Assembly: GCA_900467685.1 (NCBI GenBank)
Contig: UBQX01000029.1
Coordinates: 124,001-188,000, forward strand
DNA: 64,000 nucleotides
From: Hyphomicrobiales bacterium
Lineage (GTDB): Bacteria; Pseudomonadota; Alphaproteobacteria; Rhizobiales; Rhizobiaceae
Direction of reading: 5' to 3'
Positions 19,062-35,751 of the stretch are shown piece after piece. A program made the translations under genes and the position numbers. The notes under the pieces are model-generated. The model worked only from the letters and a program-made list of their open reading frames with translations. It ran no database searches and had not been told where the DNA came from. Each line of letters opens with the position of its first letter. The first letter of the stretch is position 1.

Positions 19062-19829
19062 TCAGTCTGCAGTCCAACCGCCATCAATGATCAGAGACGT
19101 GCCGGTCACCAGCGCCGAGGCATCTGAGGCGAGGAAGAGGATGCCGCCCATCAGGTCCTCGACCTGGCCGAGCCGGCCGAGCTTGATCTTGGCAAGCACG
19201 CTGTCGAGAAACGACTTGTCCTGGAAAAAGGGCTTCGTCAGCGGTGTCTCGATGAAGGTCGGGGCAATCGTGTTGCAGCGGATTCCATGAGGTGCAAGAT
19301 CGAGCGACATCGCCTTGCTCAAGCCTTCGATCGCCCATTTCGAGGCGCAGTAGAGCGTCCGCTTCGGCCCGCCGACATGACCCATCTGCGAGCCCATGTG
19401 GATGATCGAACCCTTGATGCCCGCCTCGATCATACCCTTCGCCACCGCTTGGGCCACGAAATATGCGGCCTTGAGGTTGAGATCGAGGACCGCGTCGAAG
19501 TCCTCTTCGGCCGCGTCGGTGATCGGCTTCGGCCGGTTGGTGCCGGCGTTGTTGACCAGGACGTCAAAGGGACCAGACCCCTCGATCCGTGATGCCGTCG
19601 CCGCGATATCCAGCACATCCAGCACCAGAGGTTCGGCACTGCCGCCAGCCGCCTTGATGGCAGCGGCGGCGTCTGTGATCTCGGCCTTCGAACGTGCGGC
19701 CAGCACGACATGGGCGCCGGCTTCAGCGAGCGCTGCGGCGGCCGCGAGCCCGATGCCGCGGCCAGCGCCCGTGACGAGCGCCCTTCGGCCATCGAGTCGG
19801 AAGGAGGGGGTTTTGGGCAGCGCGATCAC
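19062..19829 (-). CDS. SDR-family oxidoreductase
   Basis: 255-residue classical short-chain dehydrogenase. Cofactor motif [10 protein letters not shown] (residues about 21-30), NNAG, catalytic Ser in HMGSQMG, Tyr/Lys in YCASK, and a C-terminus typical of the FabG-like group ([13 protein letters not shown]). The GTG start at 19829 overlaps the stop of the HisD-like gene (GTGA), so the two are coupled. An oxidation of a hydroxy acid or polyol derivative next to the HisD-like step is likely, but the substrate is not readable. Confidence 0.88.
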
Positions 19830-21148
19830 GCGGCACCCTTTTCTTCGGCGCGACCGGCATAGGGCACATTGTCACCGCCGTAGCGGCGAACCCGCACATT
19901 GGCCTGCTCGGCATGGCCCTTGAAGCCTTCCAGATCGCAAAGACGCGAGCAATACCGTCCGACCTTGGCAGAGGCTTCGTCGGTCAGGACCTTCTGATAG
20001 GTGCAGGTCTTGAGGAACTTGCCGACCCAGAGGCCGCCGGTGTAGCGCGCCGCCTTCTTTGTCGGAAGCGTATGGTTGGTGCCGATGACCTTGTCGCCAT
20101 AGGCCACATTGGTGCGGGCCCCAAGGAAGAGCGCGCCGTAATTGGTCATGTTCTTGAGGAAATAATCCGGGTCGCGGGTCATGACCTGAACGTGCTCCGA
20201 GGCGATCTCGTCGGCGATCTTCACCATCTCCTCATCACTGTCGGCGACGATCACCTGGCCATAGGCCGCCCAGGACTTGGCTGCGATCTCGGCCGTGGGC
20301 AGGATCTTCAAAAGCCGTTCGATCTCGGCCATCGTGTCGCGCGCGAGCTTTTCCGAGGTGGTCAGCAGGATGGCGGGGCTGTCCGGCCCATGTTCGGCCT
20401 GACCGAGAAGATCGGTCGCGCAGATTTCGCCGTCCACCGTCTCGTCGGCGATGACCAGCGTTTCCGTCGGGCCTGCAAAAAGGTCGATCCCGACGCGGCC
20501 GAAGAGCTGGCGCTTGGCTTCCGCGACGAAGGCATTGCCGGGGCCGACGAGCATGTCGACCGGCGCGATCGACTTCGTCCCGATCGCCATGGCGCCGACC
20601 GCCTGAATGCCGCCGAGCGCATAGATTTCATCGGCGCCCGCCAGATGCTGGGCTGCGACGATGGCAGGGGCAAGTCCACCCTTGTAAGGCGGTGCGCAGG
20701 TGACGACGCGCGGCACGCCGGCGACTTTCGCCGTGATGACCGACATATGGGCGGACGCGAGAAGCGGATACTTGCCGCCCGGCACATAGCAGCCGGCCGC
20801 CTGGATCGGGATGTTCTTGTGGCCGAGGATGACGCCGGGAAGCGTCTCCACCTCGACGTCCTGAAGAGCAGCGCGCTGGATTTGCGCAAAATTGCGAACC
20901 TGCGCCTGGGCAAACTGGATGTCTTCGATATCCCGCTTCGACAGGGAGTTGAGGCAGGCGTCGATCTCAGCCTTCGACAGGCGATAATCGTCGCGGTCCC
21001 AGCCGTCGAACTTGATCGACAAGTCGCGCACGGCGTCGTCGCCCCGCTTTTCAATATCGGCAAGCGTTGCCTCGACAACCTCCCGAACCTTCCGGTCGTT
21101 CTCCGCAACGCTCGATGCTTCCATCCCGCGCTTCAACCACTTTGCCAT
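19826..21148 (-). CDS. Histidinol-dehydrogenase-like dehydrogenase (HpsN-type paralogue)
   Basis: 440 residues, zinc/NAD-dependent alcohol-to-acid dehydrogenase of the HisD superfamily. The zinc and catalytic residues align with HisD: Q and H in [11 protein letters not shown] in IASEHVQV, D in [14 protein letters not shown], and H in GFKGHAEQ. It starts after GGAGGAAC. No other his gene is nearby and the partner is an SDR, so it is a catabolic paralogue; HpsN (sulfolactate dehydrogenase) is the best-known example of such a role. An operator-like site lies upstream at 21193-21209. It is the first gene of a two-gene leftward unit. Confidence 0.87.
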
Positions 21149-21192
21149 GATGTTCCTCCACCCAGGTCTTGTTCGATGAGCTGCATACCCTT

Positions 21193-21209
21193 AACTGGTC
21201 ACATGTTCA
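21193..21209 (+). promoter_or_regulatory. Operator-like site 1 (upstream of the HisD-like gene)
   Basis: AACTGGTCACATGTTCA, a member of a family of seven 17-bp sites with consensus WNYTGGTYRNNYGTWYA found in front of every unit between 19 and 34 kb. Likely bound by a local regulator. Confidence 0.6.
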
Positions 21210-21294
21210 AAGATCGCGTTTTGGATAGCGACTATCGGAACTACAAATAGGTCATGCCATTGCAATTTGCGGGGCCGGCGGTAAATTCCCAGAC

Positions 21295-21311
21295 TGAACA
21301 ACTGACCAATT
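21295..21311 (-). promoter_or_regulatory. Operator-like site 2 (upstream of the DenD-like gene)
   Basis: On the minus strand AATTGGTCAGTTGTTCA, very close to site 1 (AACTGGTCACATGTTCA). It lies 23 bp before the start at 21334, where a repressor would block transcription. Confidence 0.6.
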
Positions 21312-21333
21312 AAAGAGAAGGGGAGGATGCTGG

Positions 21334-22257
21334 ATGAAGTGTGTGATTGTCGGGGCGGGCGGTTTTGTCGGAAGCCGGCTGGTGGAGACCATGCTGGCCG
21401 AAACCGGGTCGCTTCGCGAACTTGTGCTGGTCGATCAGGTCCTTCCGCCGTCTCACGCGGATCCCAGGGTCACACTGTTTTCGGGCGATTTCGCAGACCC
21501 CGGCCTGATGAAAAGGGCGACGGATGGGGCCGATAGCGTCATCCTCCTCGCCGCCATCCTCGGCGGTGCGGCAGAGAACAACTACGCGCTTGCCCGCAAG
21601 GTCAATGTCGATGCGACCTTGACCCTGTTCGAACATTTGCGGGACCGCAATCCGAAAACGCGCGTCGTCTTCGCTTCGACCATCGCGGTTTACGGCAAGC
21701 CGATGCCGGACATCGTCACCGACCACACGCCCACGTCCCCCGCGATGATCTACGGCGCGCAGAAATTGATGATGGAAGTGGCGCTCACCAATTTCGCCAC
21801 GCGCGGCTGGCTCGATGGCCTGTCGCTGCGACCTTCCGGCGTGATGGCGCGCGATGGCGCGGACGCCCGGCTGAAATCCGCCTTCATGAGCCGCGTCTTC
21901 TATGCCGTGATGCGCGGCGAGGATATTGCTTTGCCGGTCCATCCGCATTCGCGGACATGGCTGACGTCCGTGGATGCCGTGGCCCGAAATTTTGCCCATG
22001 GTGCAACATTGCCGGCGGACCGGCTCGGCAAGACCCGCGCCTTCACGCTGCCGGCGCTCAGCCTGACATTCGAAGAGCTGGTTGACGCACTCTATCGCCG
22101 CTTCCCAGAAAGTCGCTCGAAGGTCACCTACGAGCCTGAAGCCGATCTCGTCGCGCTGTTCGGCTCCTATCCGCCGCTTCGCACCGACGGCGCCGATGCG
22201 CTCGGCTTCATCCGCGACAGCGACGCGGACGATCTGGTGGCGAAGTCGTTAGGCTGA
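21334..22257 (+). CDS. NAD-dependent epimerase/dehydratase-family dehydrogenase (DenD-like)
   Basis: 307-residue extended SDR. Rossmann motif VGAGGFVGSRL at residues 5-15, catalytic Ser in ASTIAVYG, Tyr and Lys in YGAQK. It resembles D-erythronate dehydrogenase DenD and related sugar-acid dehydrogenases more than true epimerases (conserved LLAAILGGAAE and SLRPSGVMARDG). It starts after AGAAGGGGAGGA and is divergent from the HisD-like/SDR operon. The exact acid oxidised is inferred only from family resemblance. Confidence 0.82.
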   Translation: MKCVIVGAGGFVGSRLVETMLAETGSLRELVLVDQVLPPSHADPRVTLFSGDFADPGLMKRATDGADSVILLAAILGGAAENNYALARKVNVDATLTLFEHLRDRNPKTRVVFASTIAVYGKPMPDIVTDHTPTSPAMIYGAQKLMMEVALTNFATRGWLDGLSLRPSGVMARDGADARLKSAFMSRVFYAVMRGEDIALPVHPHSRTWLTSVDAVARNFAHGATLPADRLGKTRAFTLPALSLTFEELVDALYRRFPESRSKVTYEPEADLVALFGSYPPLRTDGADALGFIRDSDADDLVAKSLG

Positions 22258-22291
22258 GCCGAAGCGGCAATATCTGACCGGCAAAAGAATA

Positions 22292-22318
22292 AGGCTCGGG
22301 AAACGATTTCCCGAGCCT
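22292..22318. terminator. Bidirectional terminator hairpin
   Basis: Perfect 12-bp stem AGGCTCGGGAAA / TTTCCCGAGCCT with a 3-nt loop, placed between two convergent genes (ending 22257 and 22347). Confidence 0.8.
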
Positions 22319-22346
22319 CCATTGGCGCATATCTGTTCGCACGAAC

Positions 22347-23480
22347 TTACCGATACGGTTCGGCGATCGCCTTGATCGACGCGCCCATCAGGGCTGCCTG
22401 TTCCTGCATCGGCTGGCCGGTCATCTCCAGCTCGCCGATCTTCAGCGAATTGTTGACGACAAGCGAGGCGCGCGGAATGCGGCGGCTGTTGTAGTTCGCC
22501 AGCGCCTGCTCCACGGAAGGGCCCGACGTCAATTCGTCGCCGAGAACGATGGCGTCCTCGACGGCCGACCCTGCGCCGGAGGCGAGGTGTGGCGTGGTGG
22601 CGTGCACGGCATCGCCCAGCAGCACGACGCGGCCCTTGTTCCATGTGTCCGTCAGCAGAATGCTTTCCAGGGGGCGGTAGATGATCGGCGTTTCGGAAGA
22701 AATCGTCTCGCGCAGTGCGCCGGGTACATCGCCAAACCCTTCCATCAGGCCGCGCAGCAAGCCTGGCAGTTCCTCCTGCTTGCGCCGCGGATTGCCCGGA
22801 ACATGCTCCAGCAGATACATGTACATCTTGTCCGGCGAGCATAGTGTGAAGCCGATCTTCACCTTTTCGCTGAGATACATGCGGCCGCAGTCCCAGCCGT
22901 CCGGGATATCGAAGACCGCGCGCCAGCAGGCCTGACCGGTGAATGAGGGCTTTGGCGTGTCGGGGAAGATCATGCTGCGGACCTTGGAGAAGAGGCCGTC
23001 CGCGCCGATGACAAGATCGTAGCTGCCCTCTGTCCCATCGTTGAAGGCGACGTGTACCGCACTGCCTTTGTCTTCAAGGGTCTCGATGGTCACGCCGGTG
23101 CGGACCGTCGCTCCAGAGGCGAGCACCTTGCGTTTCATGATGGCGTGCAGGGCAGGGCGCAGGATGCCGCCTTCTGCCGGCACGTCCGGCGAATAGAGCC
23201 GCGGCATCGTCATGTTCTGAATGACATGGCCTTCCTTGGTGCAGAGCGTCACGCGGTCATAACAGTTGCCTTCCGCCATGATCTCTTTTGACAGGCCGAG
23301 GTCACTGAGGGCTCGCAATGTCAGCACGGAGAGTGTCACCCCCGTTCCATAGACCCCCCAGTTCGCGTCAATATCGATCAGATCGACGACGACGCCGGCT
23401 TCCCGCAGGCGCAGGACCGCTGCCATGCCGCCAACACCACCGCCAATCACCAGAACCTTGCTTACAACTGCTGACGTCAT
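22347..23480 (-). CDS. FAD-dependent aromatic hydroxylase-like monooxygenase
   Basis: 377 residues, PHBH-fold single-component flavin monooxygenase. FAD-binding VIGGGVGGMAAVLRL (GxGxxG) at residues 10-24, the second motif VIGADGLFSKVR, and the third motif VVLLGDAVHATTPHLASGAG. It starts after GGGAGGA. It should hydroxylate an aromatic or heteroaromatic acid with NAD(P)H and O2 before ring cleavage by the LigAB-like pair at 26265-27427. A clear paralogue sits at 42352-43482. Two GTTGGCCAAT repeats and an operator-like site lie just upstream. Confidence 0.88.
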   Translation of the reverse strand: MTSAVVSKVLVIGGGVGGMAAVLRLREAGVVVDLIDIDANWGVYGTGVTLSVLTLRALSDLGLSKEIMAEGNCYDRVTLCTKEGHVIQNMTMPRLYSPDVPAEGGILRPALHAIMKRKVLASGATVRTGVTIETLEDKGSAVHVAFNDGTEGSYDLVIGADGLFSKVRSMIFPDTPKPSFTGQACWRAVFDIPDGWDCGRMYLSEKVKIGFTLCSPDKMYMYLLEHVPGNPRRKQEELPGLLRGLMEGFGDVPGALRETISSETPIIYRPLESILLTDTWNKGRVVLLGDAVHATTPHLASGAGSAVEDAIVLGDELTSGPSVEQALANYNSRRIPRASLVVNNSLKIGELEMTGQPMQEQAALMGASIKAIAEPYR

Positions 23481-23508
23481 TCCACCATTCCTCCCATGTT
23501 GGCCAATT

Positions 23509-23525
23509 TGTACAGTTGGCCAATC
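23509..23525 (-). promoter_or_regulatory. Operator-like site 3 (upstream of the FAD monooxygenase)
   Basis: On the minus strand GATTGGCCAACTGTACA, matching the 17-bp consensus. The decamer GTTGGCCAAT occurs twice here, at 23498-23507 and 23515-23524. Confidence 0.55.
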
Positions 23526-23615
23526 AAACGGAAAAATGGATTGGTGAGATAGTATTTATCGGTGGGGCGGATACATCGAGGCCCTTCGGCAGCGTTTGTG
23601 CCGATAAAATCGTAT

Positions 23616-24536
23616 TCAACCGCTTACCTTGTCGCCTCCGACGATGTGCTGCACCAGTTGGGCGCGAGCCCATTTCAGGCATTCGTCGCTCTCGTTGAAG
23701 AGATGCCACTGGAGAGTCTCGTGGACGGGCGGAATATCGACGGGCGGGACGAGCAGCTTGAGCGGAAGAATCGCCGCAAAGGTCTCGGCCAACCTGCGGT
23801 GCATGAGAGCCAGGCGCTGCGTTCCGACGATCAGGTAGGGGATCGAAGAGTAGGACGATGTCGAGATGTCGACGGCGCGGTCGGCGCCGAAGCGCTGGGT
23901 GAACCACGCCTCGAAGCTGGGGCCGTTCTCGTTGAAATTGACGGTCACGTGCCGCATCTTCAGGAAGTCTTCCAGGGAAATCGTGTCGCCCTGAACGCGA
24001 TCGTTTCCGCTCCAGGCGACGACGCGATAGGTATCCGAAAAAAGTGGCACGCTCGGGTGGGACGGTGAAAGGTAGACGTCCGGCATCGCGAGGAACTCCA
24101 CTTCGCCGCGCTCCAGCCGCTCGCGCGGATTTTCTCTCGGCGTCAGAAGGTGGAAATTGAGGTCCGGCGCCATCGGCTGAATGCGGGTCAGGGCAGGGGC
24201 GATCGCGACGGTGATCATGTAATCCGAGGCGATGATGCGGATGTCCCGCCGCGCGGTCATGGGGTCAAATTCGGGCCGCTTGATGATCGTGCCTTCGACC
24301 TGGAGAAGGACGTTCCGCACGGCTGGCAGCAGTTCGATGGCGCGCGGCGTCATCACCATGTTGCGGCCCAGCTGGACAAGAAGCTCGTCTTCGAAATATT
24401 CGCGCAGCCGGGTCAGCGCGCCGGACGTGGCGGATTGGCTGAGAAAGAGCTTTTCCGCGGCGCGCGAAACGTTCCTTTCACTGAGCAGGCAGTCCAGAGC
24501 CACCAGCAAATTCATATCAAGTCCCTTGAAACGCAC
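23616..24536 (-). CDS. LysR-family regulator (NodD-like)
   Basis: 306-residue LTTR. The N-terminal HTH (residues about 6-65, LDMNLLVALDCLLSERNVSR then AAEKLFLSQSATSGALTRLR) and the C-terminal effector domain resemble NodD/NahR-type regulators. The GTG start at 24536 follows GGAGGAGA. It is a paralogue of the regulators at 40155 and 46846. It lies upstream of the monooxygenase on the same strand, and probably senses an aromatic acid. Confidence 0.9.
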   Translation of the reverse strand: MRFKGLDMNLLVALDCLLSERNVSRAAEKLFLSQSATSGALTRLREYFEDELLVQLGRNMVMTPRAIELLPAVRNVLLQVEGTIIKRPEFDPMTARRDIRIIASDYMITVAIAPALTRIQPMAPDLNFHLLTPRENPRERLERGEVEFLAMPDVYLSPSHPSVPLFSDTYRVVAWSGNDRVQGDTISLEDFLKMRHVTVNFNENGPSFEAWFTQRFGADRAVDISTSSYSSIPYLIVGTQRLALMHRRLAETFAAILPLKLLVPPVDIPPVHETLQWHLFNESDECLKWARAQLVQHIVGGDKVSG

Positions 24537-24718
24537 GATCTCCTCCTATCGGCTTCATGGATTGCGGCTGCGTCTTCCATCAACATTCCCGCAGCATCGG
24601 ACCGCATGCAGGGGTTCAAGCCTGCAGAGAGGCGCGGTGCGAGAGCCTTGCGCCAGATGACCAAGCGGGAACGGTTGGCGGTATTCGTTATCGGAAAGGA
24701 CGCGCGGATAGGGGGCGA

Positions 24719-25378
24719 TCAGGTTGTTTCGAGCGCCCTGAGACCGGCAAGCGAAAACTTCAACAGCAACTGATAGGTGACGTCCAGGTCGTCCCCCTTG
24801 AACTTGCCCGATGAGAGGGTGTCGACGCGGCGGTTCTTCGACACCGTCTGCAACATCAGGACAAGAATGAAGGAGAAGCCGCGGACAAGGTTCTCCTCGG
24901 GCACACGCGGTAGCAGCAGTTTCAGCTGGGCAAGATAGAGATTTGCCGTCTCGTCGAAATTTGTCCGCAGCTGGTCGAGCCAGCGTTCGTTGGATGAGAG
25001 CTTGGCCAGCAGCATGAGATAGGAGTGCCAGCCATCGTCCTCGCTCTGCATCTGCTCGAAAAGCGGGCTTATGAAGGTATCGAGAAGGGTCTCGACCGTC
25101 ATCCCGCCGCGATCGACCAGCGCCGCCAGCCGTTCACGGCGGATGCCGTTGAGAACGTCTGCCCGTCGGGCAATCACCTCGGTAAACAGGTTTTCCTTCG
25201 TGCCGAAATGATAGCTCGCCAGTGCAAGCGTCACCTCCGCTTCATTGGTGATGTCACGCAGCGACACCGCATCGAAGGATTGCTGGCCAAACAGCTTTTC
25301 AGCTGCGGCCAGGATCTTTTCGCGCGTCTGGTCGCCGTTCGATCGTGTCTGTATGGACTGTCCACCGCGCTTCTTCAT
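24719..25378 (-). CDS. TetR-family repressor
   Basis: 219 residues. The N-terminal HTH covers about residues 15-62 (TREKILAAAEKLFGQQSFDA then VSLRDITNEAEVTLALASYHFGT, split here). The C-terminal ligand domain follows the pattern of AcrR/CerR-type proteins. It is divergent from the cupin gene, and the gap holds operator-like site 4 with an 8-bp dyad. This makes it the first candidate for binding all seven sites in the 19-34 kb locus. A NodD-like LysR lies just downstream. Confidence 0.9.
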   Translation of the reverse strand: MKKRGGQSIQTRSNGDQTREKILAAAEKLFGQQSFDAVSLRDITNEAEVTLALASYHFGTKENLFTEVIARRADVLNGIRRERLAALVDRGGMTVETLLDTFISPLFEQMQSEDDGWHSYLMLLAKLSSNERWLDQLRTNFDETANLYLAQLKLLLPRVPEENLVRGFSFILVLMLQTVSKNRRVDTLSSGKFKGDDLDVTYQLLLKFSLAGLRALETT

Positions 25379-25499
25379 ATTCCCTCAGCCGATCCGCGTG
25401 ATCCGCGACCTTTCCGATTTCAATCAGTTTGCTCACTGCAAATCAACCAGACCGCCTATCAATGCAATGGGTACCGCAATTTAGGCATGGACACTTTAC

Positions 25500-25529
25500 C
25501 TTATTTGGTTGATTGTATAAACAAATAAG
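25500..25529. promoter_or_regulatory. Operator-like site 4 with dyad (TetR/cupin gap)
   Basis: ATTTGGTTGATTGTATA at 25503-25519 matches the 17-bp consensus and is framed by perfect 8-bp arms CTTATTTG (25500-25507) and CAAATAAG (25522-25529). A second, partial copy (CTGGTTGATTTG on the minus strand) lies near 25440-25452. Confidence 0.62.
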
Positions 25530-25594
25530 AAGCTGAAGCAAGCGCATTTTAGGGGCTCTGCTTCAAGGTCGGAACAGCAAGATAGAGGTATACC

Positions 25595-26170
25595 ATGTTG
25601 CCACCCATCCACCGTGTCGTCACCGGACATGACGACGAAGGCAGGGCCATCGTGGTGAGCGATGGTGCGCTACCCTCCGTCAACCGGCTCTCGTCGATAC
25701 CGGGCACGGTCTTTCATGAAGTCTGGTCGACGCAAGGCATGCCTGTCGTGCTCGGCAATACGCCGGACCCGACACTTGGCGCCTTGATGCTGCCGCCGCC
25801 GAAACACGGCACCCGGATGCGATTCGTCGATATCCCGCCGGATACCGAAGACTTCCTGAAGCATGGCGCCGCGCGCATGAAGGATGCGTTCAATGCCATC
25901 GGCGATGAGTCGGCATCGACCGTCGGACCCAGCTCACCGCATCCGCTGATGCACCGCACGGAGTCGATCGATTATGGCATCCTGATTTCCGGCGAAATCG
26001 TCCTTGTGCTTGACACCGAAGAGGTCGTGCTGAAGCCCGGCTCCGTTGTCATCCAGCGCGGCACCAATCATGCCTGGGCGAACCGCACCAGCGAAACGGC
26101 ACGCATGCTGTTCGTCCTCATCGACGGGCAATACGAGCCTGCGCTGGCAGCCAGCCTGAAGGATAGGTGA
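25595..26170 (+). CDS. Cupin-domain protein
   Basis: 191 residues with one cupin barrel in the C-terminal half (about residues 112-180). The metal-type motif is recognisable: HRTESIDYGILISGEIVLVL, then KPGSVVIQRGTNHAWANRT. The N-terminal half is not assigned. Proteins of this type occur beside aromatic dioxygenases and may act on or sequester a pathway intermediate. It is divergent from the TetR gene and convergent with the LigAB-like operon; two hairpins at 26182-26225 separate them. Confidence 0.75.
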   Translation: MLPPIHRVVTGHDDEGRAIVVSDGALPSVNRLSSIPGTVFHEVWSTQGMPVVLGNTPDPTLGALMLPPPKHGTRMRFVDIPPDTEDFLKHGAARMKDAFNAIGDESASTVGPSSPHPLMHRTESIDYGILISGEIVLVLDTEEVVLKPGSVVIQRGTNHAWANRTSETARMLFVLIDGQYEPALAASLKDR

Positions 26171-26181
26171 CAGGCGACCGT

Positions 26182-26225
26182 CGCGGAACTTTTCCGCGTC
26201 GCAAGGGCGGACCCGATGGCCCGCC
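26182..26225. terminator. Hairpins between convergent genes
   Basis: CGCGGAA-CTT-TTCCGCG (26182-26198) is a perfect 7-bp hairpin. A second GC stem GGCGG...CCGCC (to 26225) runs into TTTG. Together they probably end the cupin gene and the leftward LigA gene. Confidence 0.5.
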
Positions 26226-26264
26226 TTTGACGCACGCGCCATCGGAATTTCCAGGAGACCGATC

Positions 26265-26552
26265 TCAGGTCTCGATGTCGCCGAGTTCCAGACCCTTGAG
26301 GCGCTCGACATAGTCCAGCATGAACTGGAAACTCCAGCCGCCGTTTACCTGGATGGCGAAAGAGTAGAGCAGGAAGGGATGGGCTCCCAGCGAGAAGATG
26401 GCCCTGATGTCCTTCCCCGCCAGAGCCGAACGCTCTTCCTCGGTGAGTTCCTCGCCGGCAATGTGAGACAACGCATCCGCGTCGAAATGTGACCTGTAGG
26501 CCGGGTCACGACCATACATCCAGAGAACCTTGTCGATGGCATAGCGGGTCAT
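26265..26552 (-). CDS. Protocatechuate 4,5-dioxygenase alpha-subunit-like protein (LigA-like)
   Basis: 95 residues, small helical subunit of class III extradiol dioxygenases. The start at 26552 overlaps the LigB-like stop (ATGA). Helical pattern and residues such as YGRDPAYRSHFDAD, LTEEERSALAGKDIRAIFSL and GAHPFLLYSFA fit the LigA family, which caps the active site of LigB. It is encoded after the catalytic subunit, the reverse of the usual ligAB order. Confidence 0.82.
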   Translation of the reverse strand: MTRYAIDKVLWMYGRDPAYRSHFDADALSHIAGEELTEEERSALAGKDIRAIFSLGAHPFLLYSFAIQVNGGWSFQFMLDYVERLKGLELGDIET

Positions 26553-27427
26553 GCGCGCTCTCCATTCAGGGCAGCCTCGTTCCAGTGGAGGAAGGCGCAT
26601 GCTGGCTGCGCCGTCGTCGCCACCATTTCCGCAAAGCTTGGTCTCGCCCCGCGCGCCAGACCAAGGGCGAAGACGTAACCAAGAAATCCGGGCGTTCCGT
26701 TACCGGTCGCATAGAGCTGGTCCCAGGTGCTGCGCTCGACGATGCCGTCGATATTGTTTTCCCGGATCAGGGACCATGTGGTGCGATCCCATTCGCTCTC
26801 GGGTTCCTGGACACTGCGCATCATGCCCGGACCACCGACGCTGTTCGACATGTGCCCCGTCGCAATGACGGCAACGCGCTTGTCGCTGCCATCATCTTCG
26901 ATGGCCTCCGCGACAATGCTGCCCACCTGCCGGTAACGCCAGCCCGGCGGGACCGGCGGCGCCAGCAGGTTGATGAACAGGGGCACGACCGGCAGATCGT
27001 CCTGCGGGCGCAGGAAGTTGAGCGGAATGGTGAAGGAATGATCTGCGATGAACTCGTCCGAGTAGGAGAAGTCAACGCCGCGCTCCAGCCCGCCCTTCAG
27101 GATTTTGCGGGCAAGCGCGCCGTCGATCGGCAGATCGGTTTCCTTCAGGCCCCATGCGCCTGTTTCCGAGGGAAAGGGCCCTTTGAGTCGGGTCGCCTTG
27201 CCGACCATGAAGGTCGGCATGTTGTTCATGAACCATTGCCCGAAGTGGTCGGAGCCGACAACGACGATTGCGTCAGGTGCAGCTTTCTCAAGCTCTTGCC
27301 GGAGAGTTTCCATGTGGGCCAGCGCGGGAAGCGCGCCGGGATCCGCCTTCCCCACCGCCGCTAGGCGCTGGGCAATCGGCAGGGTCGGGTCATGCGGGAC
27401 TGCGGTAAGGCTGACTATACGTGCCAT
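26549..27427 (-). CDS. Class III extradiol dioxygenase-like catalytic subunit (LigB-like)
   Basis: 292 residues of the LigB superfamily, which cleaves catecholic rings with Fe(II). Two iron-ligand His are at the canonical positions, H12 (VPHDPTLP) and H61 (GSDHFGQW), and H130 (IADHSFT) and H192 (ATGHMSN) match LigB H127 and H195. The third ligand, Glu242 of LigB (in GSEGVELVMW), has no counterpart: the aligned stretch reads GNGTPGFLGYVF. It may use another acid or have a changed function. It is flanked by LigA-like and NTF2-like genes in one leftward operon headed by operator-like site 5. Confidence 0.82.
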   Translation of the reverse strand: MARIVSLTAVPHDPTLPIAQRLAAVGKADPGALPALAHMETLRQELEKAAPDAIVVVGSDHFGQWFMNNMPTFMVGKATRLKGPFPSETGAWGLKETDLPIDGALARKILKGGLERGVDFSYSDEFIADHSFTIPLNFLRPQDDLPVVPLFINLLAPPVPPGWRYRQVGSIVAEAIEDDGSDKRVAVIATGHMSNSVGGPGMMRSVQEPESEWDRTTWSLIRENNIDGIVERSTWDQLYATGNGTPGFLGYVFALGLARGARPSFAEMVATTAQPACAFLHWNEAALNGERA

Positions 27428-27436
27428 GACGCAGGC

Positions 27437-28114
27437 TCACAGATAGATGCGGACGGCGTGCAGACGTCCCGGTGTGGAACTGCGCTGATAGAGGGCAATC
27501 GCCGGACGGCCGCTCGGCATGTAGACCTCGCCGACGCAGGTCGTTCCGTCGTCCGTGAACTGGCAGTAGCGGACCTTGATGCCGGTGTTTCCCATCATCT
27601 TGGAGAAATCCTGACGCAATTCCTCCCGGCCCTTGAATGTCTCGCCGTTGGAATGGCGGAAATAGCCGTCCGTGTCGAACAGGTCGAGGACTTCCTCGAG
27701 CTGGTTCCCGCCCAGCGCCTTGAAATAGGTGAAGAGGACATCCTGTTCCGAAGTCCACGGATGGATACCCTCGACTACCTCGAGAATCGGAGCCCGATCC
27801 TCGACGAGATGGTGGTCCGAATAGACCCGCACCACAGAGCCGCCGGTCCCGTTGCTCTCGAACATGAAGCCGACCGGGAGGTACTCCCTGCTGCCGTCGC
27901 CGGGAATGAAGTGATATTCCTCGAAACGGCGATTGCCGGCCTCCGTCGCGCCTTGGAAGCGGACCTCGCTCCACAGTGCGTTGCCGGGCCAAAGCTTGCT
28001 GGACGCCTCAAAGGTCGCAGCATCGCTATCGCCCGTGAACATGTCGTTGACGCGCTCCTGAAGCCGCAGCTTGCCGATCAATGCGTCGCGTGCACTCAAT
28101 TCTCTATCACTCAT
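27437..28114 (-). CDS. NTF2/SnoaL-like double-domain protein
   Basis: 225 residues. The start at 28114 follows GGGAGGA; the frame is open to 28219 but that part lies over the promoter. Two NTF2-like alpha-beta folds are suggested: residues about 1-110 (dioxygenase beta-subunit-like pattern) and 112-225 (HPWTSEQDVLFTYFKALGGN, FDTDGYFRHSNGETFKGREE). No catalytic motif is conclusive. As the first gene of the LigB-LigA operon it may be an isomerase/dehydratase of a pathway intermediate. Confidence 0.72.
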   Translation of the reverse strand: MSDRELSARDALIGKLRLQERVNDMFTGDSDAATFEASSKLWPGNALWSEVRFQGATEAGNRRFEEYHFIPGDGSREYLPVGFMFESNGTGGSVVRVYSDHHLVEDRAPILEVVEGIHPWTSEQDVLFTYFKALGGNQLEEVLDLFDTDGYFRHSNGETFKGREELRQDFSKMMGNTGIKVRYCQFTDDGTTCVGEVYMPSGRPAIALYQRSSTPGRLHAVRIYL

Positions 28115-28151
28115 ATCTTCCTCCCGGTATCGGTGTTGTGGCCGCACTATA

Positions 28152-28168
28152 ACTTGGTTGGTCGACCA
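28152..28168 (+). promoter_or_regulatory. Operator-like site 5 (upstream of the LigAB operon)
   Basis: ACTTGGTTGGTCGACCA, the most symmetrical of the seven sites; it contains the palindrome TGGTCGACCA. Confidence 0.6.
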
Positions 28169-28335
28169 GTCAATATAGGGAGCCAAACGAAAGGCGTTTG
28201 AGATGTATGCGGCGTGCATCAGGCCCCATGTCTGCAGGGGTCGCGGACCGCGTCCCTAATACCCCGCCTGCCAGGGAATGGGCCTCGGCAGATGCTGGAG
28301 ACGCACACCTGTTTCGCCCAATCGCGCAAGAGCAC

Positions 28336-28382
28336 TTGACAATTGAGAGATCGACTGAAATTAATTGTACGATCAACCAATA
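28336..28382 (+). promoter_or_regulatory. Promoter with operator-like site 6 (upstream of the importer)
   Basis: A -35-like TTGACA (28336-28341) is followed by an AT-rich stretch. On the minus strand 28366-28382 reads TATTGGTTGATCGTACA, matching the 17-bp consensus. The site overlaps the expected start of transcription, as for a repressor. Confidence 0.58.
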
Positions 28383-28451
28383 AAGAAATGGGTCTGATGA
28401 CGGGTGATGAACGCACCATCAGGCGCTTCCGGTCAGGGGAGGACGCGGGAT

Positions 28452-29222
28452 ATGGGCGAGGGCTTTCGTCTTTTCATCTGGCAGGGGGTGGCCATCCTGT
28501 TCGTTGTCGCCATCTGGGCGCTGGGCAACGTAACGGGTCTCATTGATGTGGCGATCCTGCCGCCGGTCCAGATCGTCGGGTATCAGATCATCGCGGTGCT
28601 GGCCCGTCCGGAATTCGCCGCGGCCATGGGGCATACGGTTTTCGATGCACTGCGCGGACTGCTCATCGGGTCGATCCTGGCCATCCCGGCGGGGATTCTG
28701 ATCGGCATGTTCCCGGCTGTTGAGCGCGCAACGCGCATGCTGATCGATTTCGGCCGATCCTTTCCGGTGATCGCGCTCTTGCCGATCCTGGTTCTGCTGT
28801 TTGGTGCCACATCGGAAATGAAGGTCGTTGCCATTGCCATCGCCTGCTTCTTCCCGGTTCTGATCCAGACGATTTCCGGAGCCCGGCGTCTAGATCCGAC
28901 CATTGTCGATACGATCAGAAGCTACCGGATTCCGGCGCATCTGCGCTTCTTCAAGGTGCTGCTGCCGGCCGCCGGACCCTATATCAGCACCGGTCTTCGC
29001 ATTGCGACCACCGTTTCCATTCTCGTATCCGTCGGGGTCGAGATCGTGAGCCTGACGCCGGGGATCGGGCGGGAGATCTCGCTTGCCCGCAGCTACAACG
29101 AGACGGCGACCGCCTTCGCCTACATTTTCTTCTCCGGTCTTCTCGGCGTGTTGCTGACCTTTCTGTGGGATCGACTGGAAGCGCGCCTTCTCGGCTGGCA
29201 CCTGCGATCCACGGCGGAATAG
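28452..29222 (+). CDS. ABC transporter permease (NitT/TauT/SsuC type), first
   Basis: 256 residues with about six TM segments; BPD_transp_1 fold. The start at 28452 follows GGGGAGG; an ATG at 28404 is possible but less well placed. The EAA-like loop is near TIRSYRIPAHLRFFKVLLPA. It is the first gene of a four-gene importer (two permeases, ATPase, binding protein) that probably brings in the aromatic acid degraded by this locus. Confidence 0.9.
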   Translation: MGEGFRLFIWQGVAILFVVAIWALGNVTGLIDVAILPPVQIVGYQIIAVLARPEFAAAMGHTVFDALRGLLIGSILAIPAGILIGMFPAVERATRMLIDFGRSFPVIALLPILVLLFGATSEMKVVAIAIACFFPVLIQTISGARRLDPTIVDTIRSYRIPAHLRFFKVLLPAAGPYISTGLRIATTVSILVSVGVEIVSLTPGIGREISLARSYNETATAFAYIFFSGLLGVLLTFLWDRLEARLLGWHLRSTAE

Positions 29223-29227
29223 GGGGG

Positions 29228-30058
29228 ATGTTCGTGCGTTACGTCGTCGTTGATATCGTTGTCGACCTCCTGCGGTCGATCTGGCTGCCGGTATGTCTGG
29301 TTCTCCTGTGGCTCTATGCGTCCAGCGGCTCGACCTCGGTCTATTTCCCGCCGCTGGCCGAGATCTTCGCCACGCTGGTTCGTGAAATCGTCCACGGCGA
29401 TCTTGGCCGGCATCTGTTGCTCAGCCTCTCCAACCTGGCAGTCGGCATGGCTTTCGCGATCGTTTTCGGCGTGGCCTGCGGACTCGTCATCGGTCGGGCC
29501 GAAACATGGCGCCGGATCTGGTCGCCAACGCTGAATTTCCTGCGCGCGGTGCCGCCTGCCGCCATCGTGCCGATCATCATCATAGCGCTGGGCGTCGGAG
29601 CCGCGCCGAAGATATTCGTGATCGCGCTGGGCAGTTTCTGGCCCATCCTCTTGAACACGATCGACGGTGTCAGGGGCACCTCGCCCGCGCTCATCGAGAC
29701 GGCGCGCGCCTATCGCATCCCGGCCTTTCTCTTCGTCTTCCGCGTGGCTCTGCCCGCCGCATTGCCGCAGATCATGGCCGGCATCCGCGTCGCGCTGGCG
29801 GTTGGGCTGGTGCTGATGGTGATATCGGAATTCTTCGGGGCGGACGCAGGCATCGGGTTCTACATCACCGACGCCTCCACCCGCTTCGCAATCCAGGAAA
29901 CATGGGCCGGAACTCTGCTCGTCGGAGCGATGGGCTATGTTCTCAGCTCACTTTTCCTGCAACTCGAGCGGCGGCTCCTCTTCTGGTACTTCCAGGAAGA
30001 CGGGCAAGCCTCCAGCAAACGTAAGGGCCGACGAAACAAGGTCGGAGGAGGACAATGA
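29228..30058 (+). CDS. ABC transporter permease (NitT/TauT type), second
   Basis: 276 residues, same fold as its neighbour; EAA-like loop TARAYRIPAFLFVFRVALPA. The ATG at 29228 abuts the SD-like GGGGGG, so a GTG at 29234 (spacing 6 nt) may be the real start. It overlaps the ATPase gene as ATGA. Two non-identical permeases imply a heterodimeric channel, unlike most SsuC homodimers. Confidence 0.9.
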   Translation: MFVRYVVVDIVVDLLRSIWLPVCLVLLWLYASSGSTSVYFPPLAEIFATLVREIVHGDLGRHLLLSLSNLAVGMAFAIVFGVACGLVIGRAETWRRIWSPTLNFLRAVPPAAIVPIIIIALGVGAAPKIFVIALGSFWPILLNTIDGVRGTSPALIETARAYRIPAFLFVFRVALPAALPQIMAGIRVALAVGLVLMVISEFFGADAGIGFYITDASTRFAIQETWAGTLLVGAMGYVLSSLFLQLERRLLFWYFQEDGQASSKRKGRRNKVGGGQ

Positions 30059-30858
30059 ACATCATGACCCCTGTGAAGCCTCCAATGCCTGCACGAGCGA
30101 AATCGCTGTCCGTTGAAGGTCTGAGCAAAAGCTATGGCAATATCCATGTCTTGTCCGATCTCAATCTGCGGGTGGAGCCGGGTGAGGTCATTGCCATCGT
30201 TGGCCCTTCCGGGGCCGGCAAGACGACGCTTTTGCGCTGCCTGTCGGGGCTGATGCCGCCGACATCGGGCGGAGTGAAAGTCGGTGGCGAACCGGTGCGG
30301 GAGCCGGTTGCCGAGATCGGCCTCGTCTTTCAGGATTATCGCGGCTCGATGTTGCCCTGGATGCGCGCGGTCGAAAACGTCGCCTTTCCCTTGCAGGGAA
30401 AGGGTGTGCCGAAAGCCGAACGCCTGGCCCGAGCCCGCGCCTGCCTGGAGGATGTCGGCCTGCCCGACGTCGGCGAACGCTATCCCTGGCAAATGTCCGG
30501 CGGCATGCAGCAGCGCGTCGCGATAGCGCGCGCGATCGCCTATGACGCGCATATCCTTCTGATGGACGAACCCTTCGGCTCGCTTGACGCCCAGACGCGC
30601 TTCGATCTGGAAGACCTGGTTCTGTCGTTGCGCAAGCAGCTGGCCATTTCCATCGTCGTCGTCACGCACGACATCGACGAAGCCGTCTATCTGGCCGACC
30701 GCGTGATCGTTCTCTCGGGCCATCCGGCGACCGTCATCGACACTGTCGATATCGAGCTTGGTGCAAACCGGGACCAGATCACCACCAAGGCCGACCCACG
30801 CTTTGCCCAATACCGGAGCCGGATTCTCGAACAGATCCGGCGGCCCGCAGCGGCATGA
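30055..30858 (+). CDS. ABC transporter ATPase (NitT/TauT type)
   Basis: 267 residues. Walker A GPSGAGKTT, Q-loop VFQDYRGSMLPW, signature MSGGMQQRVAIARAI, Walker B ILLMDEPFGSLDA, H-loop VTHDIDEAV. The MLPW after the Q-loop is typical of nitrate/taurine-type ATPases. It is coupled to the upstream permease through an ATGA overlap. Confidence 0.93.
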   Translation: MNIMTPVKPPMPARAKSLSVEGLSKSYGNIHVLSDLNLRVEPGEVIAIVGPSGAGKTTLLRCLSGLMPPTSGGVKVGGEPVREPVAEIGLVFQDYRGSMLPWMRAVENVAFPLQGKGVPKAERLARARACLEDVGLPDVGERYPWQMSGGMQQRVAIARAIAYDAHILLMDEPFGSLDAQTRFDLEDLVLSLRKQLAISIVVVTHDIDEAVYLADRVIVLSGHPATVIDTVDIELGANRDQITTKADPRFAQYRSRILEQIRRPAAA

Positions 30859-30885
30859 ATTCGTAAAACTCAGGAGGAGGAGAGA

Positions 30886-31845
30886 ATGAAAAACATGACA
30901 AGCAGAAGGTATGTTCTCGGGATGGCCGCGGCCGTTCTCGCAGCAGGGTTCCTGCCGGGCACCATGGCCCAGGCAGCAGACACGGTGATCCGCGTCCTGC
31001 GATCGCCGGTCGGCACCTTTCAGGGATTGTACATTGCCGAGCAGCAGGGCTACTTCAAGGAAGCCGGTCTGAAGGTCGAAATCACCGTCGGTGGCGCACC
31101 TTCGCAGAATATCGCACAGCTGCAGGCCGGGCAGACCGACATCATCATGTCGGGTTCGTTCGATGTCGTAACGGCTGCTGCACGCGGCCTGCCAGTTCTG
31201 GCAGTGCTGAACACGCAGGATCAGGGCGATGTGCCGACGACGGGATTGCTCGTTCCGCCCGCAAGCGCGATCAAGAGCGTCGCGGATCTGAAAGGCAAGG
31301 CCGTGGGCCTGCCCGGTGGCGCCCAGAGCACGCAAGGCCTGATGCTTTTCAGGGCGCTGGAAAAGGCCGGCATGACCAAGGACGACGTCCGCGTCGTCAA
31401 TCTACCTTTCGACGCGATGATCGAAAGCGCCGAGCGCGGAAGCGTTGACGCGATCGTTCCGATCGGACTGTTCTATTCTCTCGCTGAAGCCAAGAAGTTC
31501 CGCGTGATCGATGGAGTCTATCCGGAGATCAAGGGAAGCCCGGCCGTGATCTTCGTCTCATCGAAGAGTTTCGTGACCGAAAAGGCAGACGCGATGAAGG
31601 CCTTTAACGCCGCCATGCTCAAGGCCTACGAATACGGCAACGCGCATCCGGATGTCATTCGCGAGATCGATGCGGCGCAGACGAAAATGCCGCCGGATTA
31701 CATCAAGACCCGCTACATCGCGCCGTTCACCGGTTCCTTCCAGAGAGACATCTGGGTGAAGGCGGCGGCAGACATGCATCGCTTCGGCTTCATCCCGAAG
31801 GCCGTGACGGAAGCCGACTTCATCTGGTCCGGCGCCCCGAAGTGA
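30886..31845 (+). CDS. Periplasmic binding protein (NMT1/SsuA-like)
   Basis: 319 residues with a signal peptide (1-31) that contains SRRYVLG, close to a twin-arginine motif, so Tat export is possible. The body follows the NMT1/THI5 pattern: GLYIAEQQGYFKEAGLKVE, GGAPSQNIAQLQAGQTDIIM, LKGKAVGLPGGAQS. It starts after GGAGGAGGAG and is the last gene of the importer operon; a strong hairpin follows. The ligand is probably a carboxylated aromatic or sulfonate. Confidence 0.9.
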   Translation: MKNMTSRRYVLGMAAAVLAAGFLPGTMAQAADTVIRVLRSPVGTFQGLYIAEQQGYFKEAGLKVEITVGGAPSQNIAQLQAGQTDIIMSGSFDVVTAAARGLPVLAVLNTQDQGDVPTTGLLVPPASAIKSVADLKGKAVGLPGGAQSTQGLMLFRALEKAGMTKDDVRVVNLPFDAMIESAERGSVDAIVPIGLFYSLAEAKKFRVIDGVYPEIKGSPAVIFVSSKSFVTEKADAMKAFNAAMLKAYEYGNAHPDVIREIDAAQTKMPPDYIKTRYIAPFTGSFQRDIWVKAAADMHRFGFIPKAVTEADFIWSGAPK

Positions 31846-31858
31846 CGCCCTGAAATCG

Positions 31859-31890
31859 AACGGGCCGCCTCGCTTCGGGTGCGGCCCGTT
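31859..31890 (+). terminator. Terminator after the importer operon
   Basis: Perfect 10-bp stem AACGGGCCGC / GCGGCCCGTT with a 12-nt loop, followed by TG. It separates the importer from the following SDR, which may be partly read through. Confidence 0.75.
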
Positions 31891-32023
31891 TGCACGCATG
31901 CGCCAGCCCGCGAGCCAGATCCGACCCGCGCCGGGCGGCGATACGGCCATCAGCGCGGATGCCCCGGCGGTCGCGCATCCTGCCGGCCTCGATGCGCTGG
32001 CGTTCCCCTATCAGTCAGAGGAA

Positions 32024-32830
32024 ATGCCCATGACCCCATCGCCTGATGGCAAGGATTATCGCACGATGTTCGGCCTCAAGGGGCGAACGGTGCTTGTCAC
32101 GGGTGCCTGTGGCGGGCTTGGCTCGGCGATCGTTGATCTTTTCGTTTCCGCCGAGGCGCGGCTGATCCTGTCCGATATCGACGAGCCGGCACTCACCGAC
32201 AGGGTCGCTTCCATCAACGCACCCGGTTCGGGCCATGCGGCCCTTCCGCTTGATCTTTCGGATCTGTCCGCCGTTCGGGCACACATGAGGGCGCTGGTGG
32301 CACGAGGCGACGTGCCCGATAGCCTCATCCTGAATGCCGGCATGCAGGGTCCGGCCGGCCCGATCGGCGAAGTCGGCCAGGATGACTGGGATCGGGTGAT
32401 GACGGTCAACCTCGCCAGCGCCCATGCCATCTGTTCTGAAATCCTGCCCGCGATGGCGGAGAGAGGTGGCGGGTCGATCGTCTTCATGGCTTCGATCGCC
32501 GGTCTGCGCGGCAACAAATCGATCGGCCTCTACGGGTTGACCAAAGCCGCGCTTTCCCAATTCGCGCGCAATCTCGCTGTCGAATGGGGTCCGCGGAATA
32601 TCCGCGCCAATGCCATTGCACCGGGTCTCACGCGCACGCCGCTCGCCCGCGACCTCATGGCGAACGCGGCCTTCATGGAGCGCCGCATGTCCATGACGCC
32701 GCTCCGCCGCGTTGGCGAACCTGAGGAGATTGCCGCAACGGCCCTCTATCTCTCAAGCTCCGCCGGTGCCTTCGTGACCGGCCAGACGATTGTCGTGGAC
32801 GGCGGCACATTGATCACCGACGGCGGCTGA
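32024..32830 (+). CDS. SDR-family oxidoreductase
   Basis: 268 residues. The start is ATG 32024 or 32030; AGAGG lies just upstream, and the longer frame to 31898 crosses the terminator. Motifs: VTGACGGLGSA (cofactor), LILNAG, MASIAG (Ser), YGLTKAA (Tyr/Lys), and IVVDGGTLITDGG at the end. The classical FabG-like fold points to a dehydrogenase of a ring-opened or alicyclic intermediate. It lies between the importer and the lactonase gene. Confidence 0.87.
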   Translation: MPMTPSPDGKDYRTMFGLKGRTVLVTGACGGLGSAIVDLFVSAEARLILSDIDEPALTDRVASINAPGSGHAALPLDLSDLSAVRAHMRALVARGDVPDSLILNAGMQGPAGPIGEVGQDDWDRVMTVNLASAHAICSEILPAMAERGGGSIVFMASIAGLRGNKSIGLYGLTKAALSQFARNLAVEWGPRNIRANAIAPGLTRTPLARDLMANAAFMERRMSMTPLRRVGEPEEIAATALYLSSSAGAFVTGQTIVVDGGTLITDGG

Positions 32831-32956
32831 GGGCTGGACCAGGGCCTCGGTCTGCAGAACCGCCGCCTTGCGACGCATCACCGGCGAATGGATCGACTGG
32901 AGGCTCGAGTTGAACAACACCGCCCCGCAACGCGTTGACAAGAAAACCGAAACAGT

Positions 32957-32973
32957 ATTTGGTTGAACGTATA
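32957..32973 (+). promoter_or_regulatory. Operator-like site 7 (upstream of the SMP-30 gene)
   Basis: ATTTGGTTGAACGTATA, almost identical to site 4 (ATTTGGTTGATTGTATA), 29 bp before the start at 33002. Confidence 0.62.
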
Positions 32974-33001
32974 ACTAACTAAATGGTAGCAGGAGTCTTT
33001 C

Positions 33002-34012
33002 ATGTCGAACCCCCTCAAAGGCTTCACGGTCAACCGTGCCGACATTCGTTTCACAGGGCATGACCTGCAACGCCCGGAATGCATTCTGGCCGAACGCGAC
33101 GGCACCCTCTGGTCGGCGGATGCGCGGGGAGGGGTGGTGCGGATCGCGCCGGACGGAAGCCAGGAACTCATCGTCCAGACCGGTCTCGAACAGGTCGGTG
33201 GCGGCTCCTTCGAAGACCGCTATGTCAACACGCAAGGCAGCCTGCCGAATGGGCTGGCATTCGACGCCGAGGGCAATTTCCTGATCGCCAACTTCGGCAC
33301 CGACCGCCTGGAATTCATGCGCCGGAATGGCGAGAGCAAGGTGCTGATCGACCAGATCGACGGCCGGCCGCTCGGCAAGGCCAATTTCGTGACCCGCGAC
33401 AGCAAGGGCCGTTTGTGGCTGACGGTCACGACGCAGACGATCCCGTGGACCGACCACGTCAAAACCAACAGCCGCGATGGCTATATCGCACTGATTGACG
33501 ACAAGGGCGTGCGAATTGTCGCAGACAATCTGTGCGGAACGAACGAGCTGCGCTTCGATGCGAAGGAAGAATGGCTCTATGTCGCCGAAACGACCTCTCG
33601 CAACATCACGCGGTTCCTCGTCCATCACAATGGCGACCTGACAAACCGGGAGATTTACGGCCCCAGCAATGTCGGCGGGTTCTGCGACGGCATCGCGTTC
33701 GACGCCTATGGAAATCTCTGGTCGACGCTCATCATGTCCGATCGGCTGATCGCCATCACGCCCGAAGGAGAATTGCTGACCATCCTGGACGACGGCGATG
33801 CGGAGAAGACGGCCGAACTCGATCGTGCCTGGGAAGAGGGCCGCGTCACGCCCGACGTGATGGCCGCCGCCACCGGCACGCTGTGCCCATGGATGGCGAG
33901 TCTGACTTTCGGCGGACCGGACCTGAAAACCGTCTACCTCGGATCGCTCCGCGGCGATCGCATTCCCTACTTCCGCAGTCCGGTCGCTGGCTTGCCGTTG
34001 ATTTACTGGTGA
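33002..34012 (+). CDS. SMP-30/gluconolactonase-family hydrolase
   Basis: 336-residue six-bladed beta-propeller lactonase-type protein. It starts after GCAGGAGTC. Family signs are ECILAERDGTLWSADARGG, GSLPNGLAFDAEGNFLIANF, CGTNELRFDAKEEWLYVAET and GGFCDGIAFDAYGNLWSTLI, which hold the usual Glu/Asn/Asp metal ligands. It probably opens a lactone made downstream of ring cleavage. It is the last unit of the site-1-to-7 regulon. Confidence 0.85.
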   Translation: MSNPLKGFTVNRADIRFTGHDLQRPECILAERDGTLWSADARGGVVRIAPDGSQELIVQTGLEQVGGGSFEDRYVNTQGSLPNGLAFDAEGNFLIANFGTDRLEFMRRNGESKVLIDQIDGRPLGKANFVTRDSKGRLWLTVTTQTIPWTDHVKTNSRDGYIALIDDKGVRIVADNLCGTNELRFDAKEEWLYVAETTSRNITRFLVHHNGDLTNREIYGPSNVGGFCDGIAFDAYGNLWSTLIMSDRLIAITPEGELLTILDDGDAEKTAELDRAWEEGRVTPDVMAAATGTLCPWMASLTFGGPDLKTVYLGSLRGDRIPYFRSPVAGLPLIYW

Positions 34013-34773: not shown

Positions 34774-35751
34774 TCAGGCCGCCTTGACGACCTTCTGGTC
34801 AATCGCCCCGAAGACGGGTGTGCCGTCGGGCAGGAAGACTTCCATCTTCACGGTATCGCCGAAGGCCATGAACGAAGTCTTGGCCTCTCCGAGATCGAGC
34901 ATCTCGATGCCACGGCGCTCGGCGATGCAGCTGGAGCCGATCTCACGGTAGTTCGCGTTGGAGACGGTGCCGGACCCGATGATCGTGCCGGGAACGAGAT
35001 CGCGCGAATAGGCCGCATGGGCGACGAGGTCGTCGAAGCCGAAACCCATGTGATAGCCGTTGGCTGCGCCGAACCGGTCGCCGTTCCAGAAGACATTGAG
35101 CGGCAGATCGACGCGGGCATCGCGCCAGGCGGCTCCGAGCTCGTCGGGCGTGACGGCGACCGGGGCGACCGAGCAGGGGGGCTTCGCCTGAATCCAGCCG
35201 AAGCCGGTCTTCATCTCGACGGGGGCCAGCTTCCTGAGGCTCCAGTCGTTGACCTGGACCAGCAGGCGGATGTATTTCGTGGCGTCCCTGGCGCTCGTTC
35301 CAGCCGGAACCGCGCTGACGACGACACCGAATTCGCCCTCGAAATCGATGCCGTCATCAGTCGAGGGAAATGGCACGTCGGCCGTCGGCGCATAGAACCG
35401 GTCGGACACGCCCTGATACATCAGCGGCTTGGTGGCTTTCTCCTTCTTGTTCATGCCGAAGACGATATCCATGAGATCGCCATGGCTCTCGAATGCGGAG
35501 CCGTCGAGCCATTGCCAGGCGCGCGGCAGCGGAGCCAGCGCATCGGCCTGGTTGAAGGAGGCTGCATCCTTCTCCTGACCGCTATTGAGGCTGTCATATT
35601 GGGCCTTCAGATCGGCCTCGATGGTCTCCCAGGCTTCCAGGGCTTCTTGCATCGTGGTCGCGGCGCGAGCCGCAACGGTCTTGGTCAGGTCGCGCGAAAC
35701 AATATGCAGCCGGCCGTCCGGCTTGCCGTTCTTCAGGGTGGCAAGTTTCAT
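34774..35751 (-). CDS. Fumarylacetoacetate-hydrolase-family protein
   Basis: 325 residues, FAH fold. Metal-ligand acidic residues are visible in DFEGEFGVVVS, and the C-terminal half has VQVNDWSLRKL, PCSVAPVAVTPDELG, and GSGTVSNANY(R)EIGSSCIAERRG near the end. FAH enzymes hydrolyse C-C bonds of 1,3-diketones or decarboxylate/isomerise meta-cleavage products. The start follows AGGAG. It is the last gene of a six-gene leftward operon with the importer and cyclase, so it acts on a ring-opened product. Confidence 0.88.
   Translation of the reverse strand: MKLATLKNGKPDGRLHIVSRDLTKTVAARAATTMQEALEAWETIEADLKAQYDSLNSGQEKDAASFNQADALAPLPRAWQWLDGSAFESHGDLMDIVFGMNKKEKATKPLMYQGVSDRFYAPTADVPFPSTDDGIDFEGEFGVVVSAVPAGTSARDATKYIRLLVQVNDWSLRKLAPVEMKTGFGWIQAKPPCSVAPVAVTPDELGAAWRDARVDLPLNVFWNGDRFGAANGYHMGFGFDDLVAHAAYSRDLVPGTIIGSGTVSNANYREIGSSCIAERRGIEMLDLGEAKTSFMAFGDTVKMEVFLPDGTPVFGAIDQKVVKAA

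Follow-up and report, generated by a model that had tools for sequence, protein, structure and literature searches.

The DNA stretch analyzed here, called the window below, comprises 64,000 nucleotides (positions 124,001 to 188,000 of contig UBQX01000029.1, assembly GCA_900467685.1) from a Hyphomicrobiales bacterium of the family Rhizobiaceae. It contains seven sites that are, with high probability, the operators of one local regulon, and the TetR-family regulator encoded on the minus strand at 24719–25378 (TetR_N and TetR_C_30 domains) is predicted to bind them as the repressor. As judged from sequence comparison, a local TetR-controlled regulon very likely exists. In related genomes the motif occurs in excess over chance, its sequence and its position before the same genes are conserved, and it co-occurs with the gene of the TetR regulator.

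The sites had been proposed in a sequence-only reading of the window, which placed a 17-bp motif in front of each of seven units. All seven site sequences are present at the positions and on the strands claimed, and each site precedes its unit, with the site centre approximately 34–80 bp from the unit start codon. The putative operators of the DenD-like gene (21287–21312, minus strand) and of the SMP-30 lactonase gene (32956–32981, plus strand) are both located about 34 bp from the respective start. The putative operator of the NTF2-LigB-LigA unit (28151–28176, plus strand) lies about 50 bp from the NTF2 start, which is probably near residue 36, at 28114, with GGAGG preceding the ATG. A further putative operator (25502–25527, plus strand) is located in the gap between tetR (minus strand, about 136 bp away) and the cupin gene (plus strand, about 80 bp away), and the one of the ABC (ATP-binding cassette) importer unit is found at 28358–28383 on the minus strand. 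The two remaining putative operators, both on the plus strand, are less well preserved: the site at 21191–21216, before the minus-strand genes of the hisD-like/SDR unit, is a weak sequence match at a conserved position, with the start of HisD some 52 bp away, and the site at 23505–23530, about 38 bp from the start of the FAD (flavin adenine dinucleotide) hydroxylase gene, is degenerate. That all seven fit one consensus was borne out in part. Five sites (21193, 21295 on the minus strand, 25503, 28366 on the minus strand, and 32957) match the written 17-bp consensus WNYTGGTYRNNYGTWYA exactly, and the sites at 23509 (minus strand) and 28152 differ from it by two mismatches each. The counterpart of the 28152 site in the related genome G298 matches this consensus in full. 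Scoring of the written consensus across the whole genome (5,054,318 bases, 43 contigs), which had been suggested as a check, gave six exact matches, five of them inside the window, versus two for the reversed pattern, a count that is circular as the consensus derives from the window sites. The sixth exact match (C20:110036) lies inside an open reading frame read as acyl-CoA-synthetase-like and was taken as chance.

Since WNYTGGTYRNNYGTWYA was fitted to the window sites, an unbiased test of the motif had to draw on sites of relatives. A matrix was built from 44 sites, all from genera other than that of the window, and was compared with 15 Markov nulls. The window scores with this matrix were 33.7 bits at 28358, 32.3 at 25502, 32.2 at 28151, 26.6 at 32956, 15.7 at 21287, and 11.4 at 23505. 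Thus, six of the seven claimed places, the 23509 site among them, are the top six of the whole window, and the importer site has the highest score. The nulls gave 0.13 matches per 64 kb at ≥10 bits and 0.4 at ≥8 bits. The sequence-only reading also held that no other gene between 19 and 34 kb has such a promoter; this matrix gives every other place there less than 2 bits. A second matrix was made from seven sites of relatives (one from G456, one from G416, two from G300, and three from G301), of which G300 and G301 share the genus of the window. When the reverse strands of the sites themselves are disregarded, the places 25501, 28357, 32955, 21286, 28150, and 21191 outscore the rest of the window with this matrix; 21191 scores 15.4 bits and 23500 scores 9.4 bits, and the best scores of eight Markov nulls range from 9.2 to 17.8. 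Five window sites stand by both matrices. The 23509 site is backed by the other-genus matrix only, and the 21193 site moderately, by the seven-site matrix only; both are also backed by their position.

Refinement of the motif in rounds on 19 stretches from 16 genomes (517 kb) resulted in 58 sites, with at least one in 18 of the stretches, an in-sample count; the reversed matrix and eight column-shuffled matrices gave no sites at the same cut-off. A matrix of six window sites and seven relatives' sites, fixed beforehand, was run with a cut-off of ≥16 bits on 12 stretches fetched later (259 kb), one and half of another of which had been picked for a match to a strict motif pattern and the remainder for TetR. 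It found 25 sites in 11 of the 12 stretches; Markov nulls gave 0.6 sites, with one site in three of 60 null stretches.

The refined consensus of the 58 sites is WWTTGGTYGRTYGWNCAANYAA. The claimed width of 17 bp was too narrow, as the refined operator spans approximately 20 bp and reads about TTGGTYGRTYGWNCAANYAA. Its right half is of the GACCAA type in 28 sites and of the GTWYAA type in 23, and the form TTGGTY-N4-RACCAA is found in 16. The operator has dyad symmetry: 55% of the consensus columns pair at the 20-bp centre, and 51% and 47% pair at the centres 2 bp on either side. At least six of ten positions pair in 37 of the 58 sites, and the window sites vary widely in this respect (8, 7, 6, 5, 4, 3, and 1 of 10).

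The distance between operator centre and start codon is conserved for several of the genes. The starts were estimated by homology, and the window is included in the counts. Before NTF2-LigB the distance is 52 bp in four genomes and 44, 44, and 40 bp in three others. Before the DenD-like gene it is 34, 34, 34, 32, 26, 36, 30, and 30 bp in eight genomes (26–36 bp in G456, G300, G301, G381, G577, G641, and G606), and before DenD-like homologues of 41–45% identity it is 36–68 bp. The HisD-like gene has its operator at distances of 52, 54, and 52 bp over a set made up of the window, G381, and G577, and at 41–66 bp in Rhizobium alvei (G456); in G300, G641, and G606 the closest site is 170–230 bp from the HisD start. 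The SMP-30 distances are 34, 34, 36, 34, and 30 bp over a set made up of the window, G298, G301, G381, and G577. A site 144–166 bp from the TetR start is present in G301, G381, and G456 as well. For 46 of the 56 sites outside the window, the distance to the start of a gene homologous to one of the window genes is −30 to 300 bp. The closeness of the sites to the start codons suggests a repressor as their ligand.

The candidate for this repressor contains an N-terminal TetR_N helix-turn-helix (PF00440, 47.8 bits against a cut-off of 24) and a C-terminal TetR_C_30 domain (PF17939, 79.8 bits against 26.3). Its best NCBIfam match is PsrA, whose equivalog test it failed with 81.6 bits against a curated cut-off of 300; the protein may work like PsrA and is not filed as PsrA. 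Its co-occurrence with the motif was assessed in a draw of 394 Rhizobiaceae genomes. TetR orthologues of at least 49% identity are present in 18 of them, including all eight with a LigB of at least 65% identity, namely that of the window and seven others (G298, G456, G525, G531, G416, G483, and G300). LigB homologues include those of Rhizobium sp. C4 (92%), R. alvei (78%), and a distant metagenome-assembled genome (39%). The strict motif pattern occurs in 10 of the 18 TetR genomes and in 11 of the 376 others (p=5.6e-10), a result to be read with the reservation that the pattern was partly designed from genomes in the test; the reversed control gave 2 of 18 and 16 of 376 (p=0.2). When only unseen genomes were counted, the pattern was found in 3 of 11 TetR genomes versus 11 of 376 (p=0.005). 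Among the 18 orthologues, 17 share the TetR helix VTLALASYHF without change, and G577 has VTLALVSYHF. In R. alvei, TetR (contig C44, L058), HisD (C46, L119), and the LigAB/DenD/ABC genes (C9, L016) are located on three different contigs, and every one of these parts has its own site; therefore, the regulon would work in trans in this species. Only TetR, of the two regulators compared (TetR and LysR), goes with the motif throughout. The genome comparison thus favors the earlier proposal that one regulator, most likely the TetR protein at 24719–25378, serves all seven units: the motif appears to travel with TetR, and LysR appears dispensable.

Weaker TetR homologues (34–40% identity) were found in eight more of the 394 genomes, and their helices differ from VTLALASYHF. 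In three of these eight, a related palindrome-like match directly precedes the start codon, with scores of 8.9, 12.5, and 17.0 bits, and the other five have none of at least 6 bits. The three loci with a match are L072 (2156–2181), L075 (1399–1424), and L077 (1411–1436, where it reads TTGAACGATCGTTCAA).

Several observations weigh against the assignment of all seven sites to a TetR regulon. The 21193 site scores 7.5 bits with the other-genus matrix (at 21188), below a non-site at 46790 with 10.1 bits, and its score with the seven-site matrix was exceeded in one of eight nulls and is not beyond chance by that test alone; the 23509 site is at null level by the seven-site matrix. With up to three mismatches allowed, the written consensus has 77 matches in the window versus a shuffle mean of 79.9. 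A relaxed dyad pattern with at most one mismatch recovered four of the seven window operators and three places elsewhere in the same genome (reversed control, two), and so missed three of the seven. Conservation of distance is likewise incomplete: the SMP-30 distance is 54–102 bp in six more distant loci, and the distances vary for the ABC importer (−28 to 80) and the FAD hydroxylase (38, 114, and 144). Matches resembling sigma-70 promoters number two in the region versus 3.1 in shuffles, with a single one at an operator (28173–28146); promoter overlap was accordingly dropped as proof of repression, promoter-like matches being at chance level. G566 (L066, L111) encodes a TetR orthologue (57% identity) in which the helix is unchanged, and has no site in the surrounding 20 kb. 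G416, G483, G525, G531, and G319 have a site immediately after tetR and lack one at distances up to about 300 bp from the tetR start; therefore, autoregulation through an adjacent site is not universal. Finally, the co-occurrence comparison covered two regulators.

The last point is what favors a protein other than TetR and LysR, with its gene at another place in the genome, as the one that binds the sites, with TetR as a mere neighbor. This explanation is very unlikely, as TetR accompanies the motif even where it stands alone on a separate contig with a site in front, as in R. alvei. The LysR-type regulator encoded in the cluster (23616–24536, minus strand), which in the window is not preceded by a site, might instead bind the sites as an activator or a repressor. 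Besides its location inside the cluster, LysR homologues of 45–69% adjoin sites in G381, G416, G483, and partly in G531, and adjoin HisD in G456. The sites are, however, kept in G298, G300, G301, G525, and G577, where the best LysR has at most about 41% identity, and in G319 and G641, where no LysR was found at E≤1e-40. Moreover, the lysR genes of G381, G416, G483, and G531 are themselves preceded by a site, as a target gene would be, and the sites are near the start codons, as expected of repressor binding. LysR was rejected as the sole regulator because several site-bearing relatives have no close homologue of it, and we regard its role as the regulator of these sites as very unlikely. A division of labor, in which TetR represses the shared promoters and LysR, in strains that carry it, activates a part of them, is unlikely; it agrees with the presence of both genes in this cluster and with the retention of LysR in a subset of the loci, and the independence of the motif from LysR speaks against it.

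It could also be argued that the motif arose by chance or by fitting, given the two sites that are two bases off the written consensus and the chance-level number of matches with up to three mismatches. This can be given almost no weight, as matrices made without window sites recover the sites, gene-specific positions are kept in other genera, and the other-genus counts speak against chance for at least five sites.

According to the preferred explanation, repression by TetR, a dimer of this protein (TetR_C_30, PsrA/NicR-like group) would bind the approximately 20 bp of consensus TTGGTYGRTYGWNCAANYAA at the promoters of the hisD-like/SDR, denD-like, FAD hydroxylase, tetR/cupin, NTF2-ligB-ligA, ABC importer, and SMP-30 units. 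It would repress the seven units until a pathway substrate or intermediate releases it. In this genome, the tetR gene itself is probably controlled through the site that it shares with the cupin gene.

The genes behind the sites point to catabolism. The HisD-like dehydrogenase (19826–21148, minus strand), whose closest PDB sequences are sulfopropanediol dehydrogenases, forms one unit with an SDR oxidoreductase (19062–19829, minus strand). The DenD-like NAD (nicotinamide adenine dinucleotide)-dependent epimerase/dehydrogenase (21334–22257, plus strand) is below the DenD cut-off. These genes are followed by a FAD-dependent hydroxylase of the aromatic-hydroxylase type (22347–23480, minus strand) and, beyond lysR and tetR, by a cupin protein (25595–26170, plus strand). 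The NTF2-like, LigB, and LigA unit (26265–28114, minus strand, with the start at 28114 taken as probable) encodes a class III extradiol dioxygenase. An ABC importer with an NMT1/SsuA-type binding protein is encoded together with an SDR at 28404–32830 (plus strand), and a SMP-30/gluconolactonase-like protein at 33002–34012 (plus strand). The cluster probably breaks down an aromatic compound, and the substrate of the pathway is probably aromatic. The FAH and cyclase genes at 34774–36588 were rejected as regulon members in this genome; they lie beside the regulon with no site near them by the other-genus matrix. In G456, G300, G381, and G577 a FAH gene adjoins DenD in line, and the DenD promoter carries a site.

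The loci of the relatives differ in gene content. In G381 (L104:5637–9456; 40 kb seen) what lies behind the tetR-adjacent site is a Peripla_BP_6/BPD_transp_2 (Liv-type) ABC importer, and the locus has no NMT1-type importer, a possible case of an importer swap under one operator. The G381 locus also adds a protein weakly similar to 2,3-dihydroxybiphenyl dioxygenase and another similar to 2,6-dihydroxy-pseudo-oxynicotine hydrolase, and the G416 locus adds a glyoxalase-fold protein and an amidohydrolase. We tentatively consider it possible that a PsrA-like TetR unites a modular aromatic pathway, the parts of which are swapped between rhizobial species and scattered over the genome, with the operator of the units retained and in many cases kept at a distance specific to the gene. 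The swappable parts would be two importer types, two dioxygenase folds, and several hydrolases, and, as part of the same tentative proposal, the dyad registers of the operator would overlap so that two dimers may bind together.

For a probably aromatic pathway of the Rhizobiaceae, the results define the set of genes, name a candidate repressor, and supply an operator. The operator can be used to reveal further genes of the pathway in related genomes, scattered ones included. A compound of the pathway is the probable inducer, so that the regulator could offer a way to identify the substrate. In the literature covered on LigAB/TetR/Rhizobium, NicR2, HisD-like/FAH clusters, Rhizobiales TetR regulons, and Rhizobiaceae meta-cleavage TetR proteins, no title or abstract opening describes this regulon, most subscription journals being outside the coverage; a match for the string TTGGTCGACCAA concerns E. 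coli ler and not this regulon.

The predicted gene switch is of an ordinary, already known kind. Among PDB sequences, NicR (5fgl, 5fhp) matches the TetR protein best (residues 20–216, E value 5.8e-13). NicR belongs to the nicotine catabolism of Pseudomonas. The TetR-family regulator PsrA of Pseudomonas, the best NCBIfam model despite the failed cut-off, represses its own promoter and binds sites such as TTCAAAC-N4-GTTTGAA (PMC13104628). The TTGGTY-N4-RACCAA sites are likewise dyads with the same N4 spacing; the half-site differs, and the genes behind the sites here are catabolic ones of the aromatic type and not fatty-acid genes. In the parts covered of a comparative-genomic study of transcription factor regulons in Proteobacteria (PMC5343134), the regulon described here is not named in the transcription factor table. 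The motifs of that study are, in the same parts, mostly palindromic, 15–25 nt long, and conserved before the operons of the transcription factor. To that extent, the set of sites in this window represents the same kind of result, a shared motif kept before what are probably the operons of one transcription factor.

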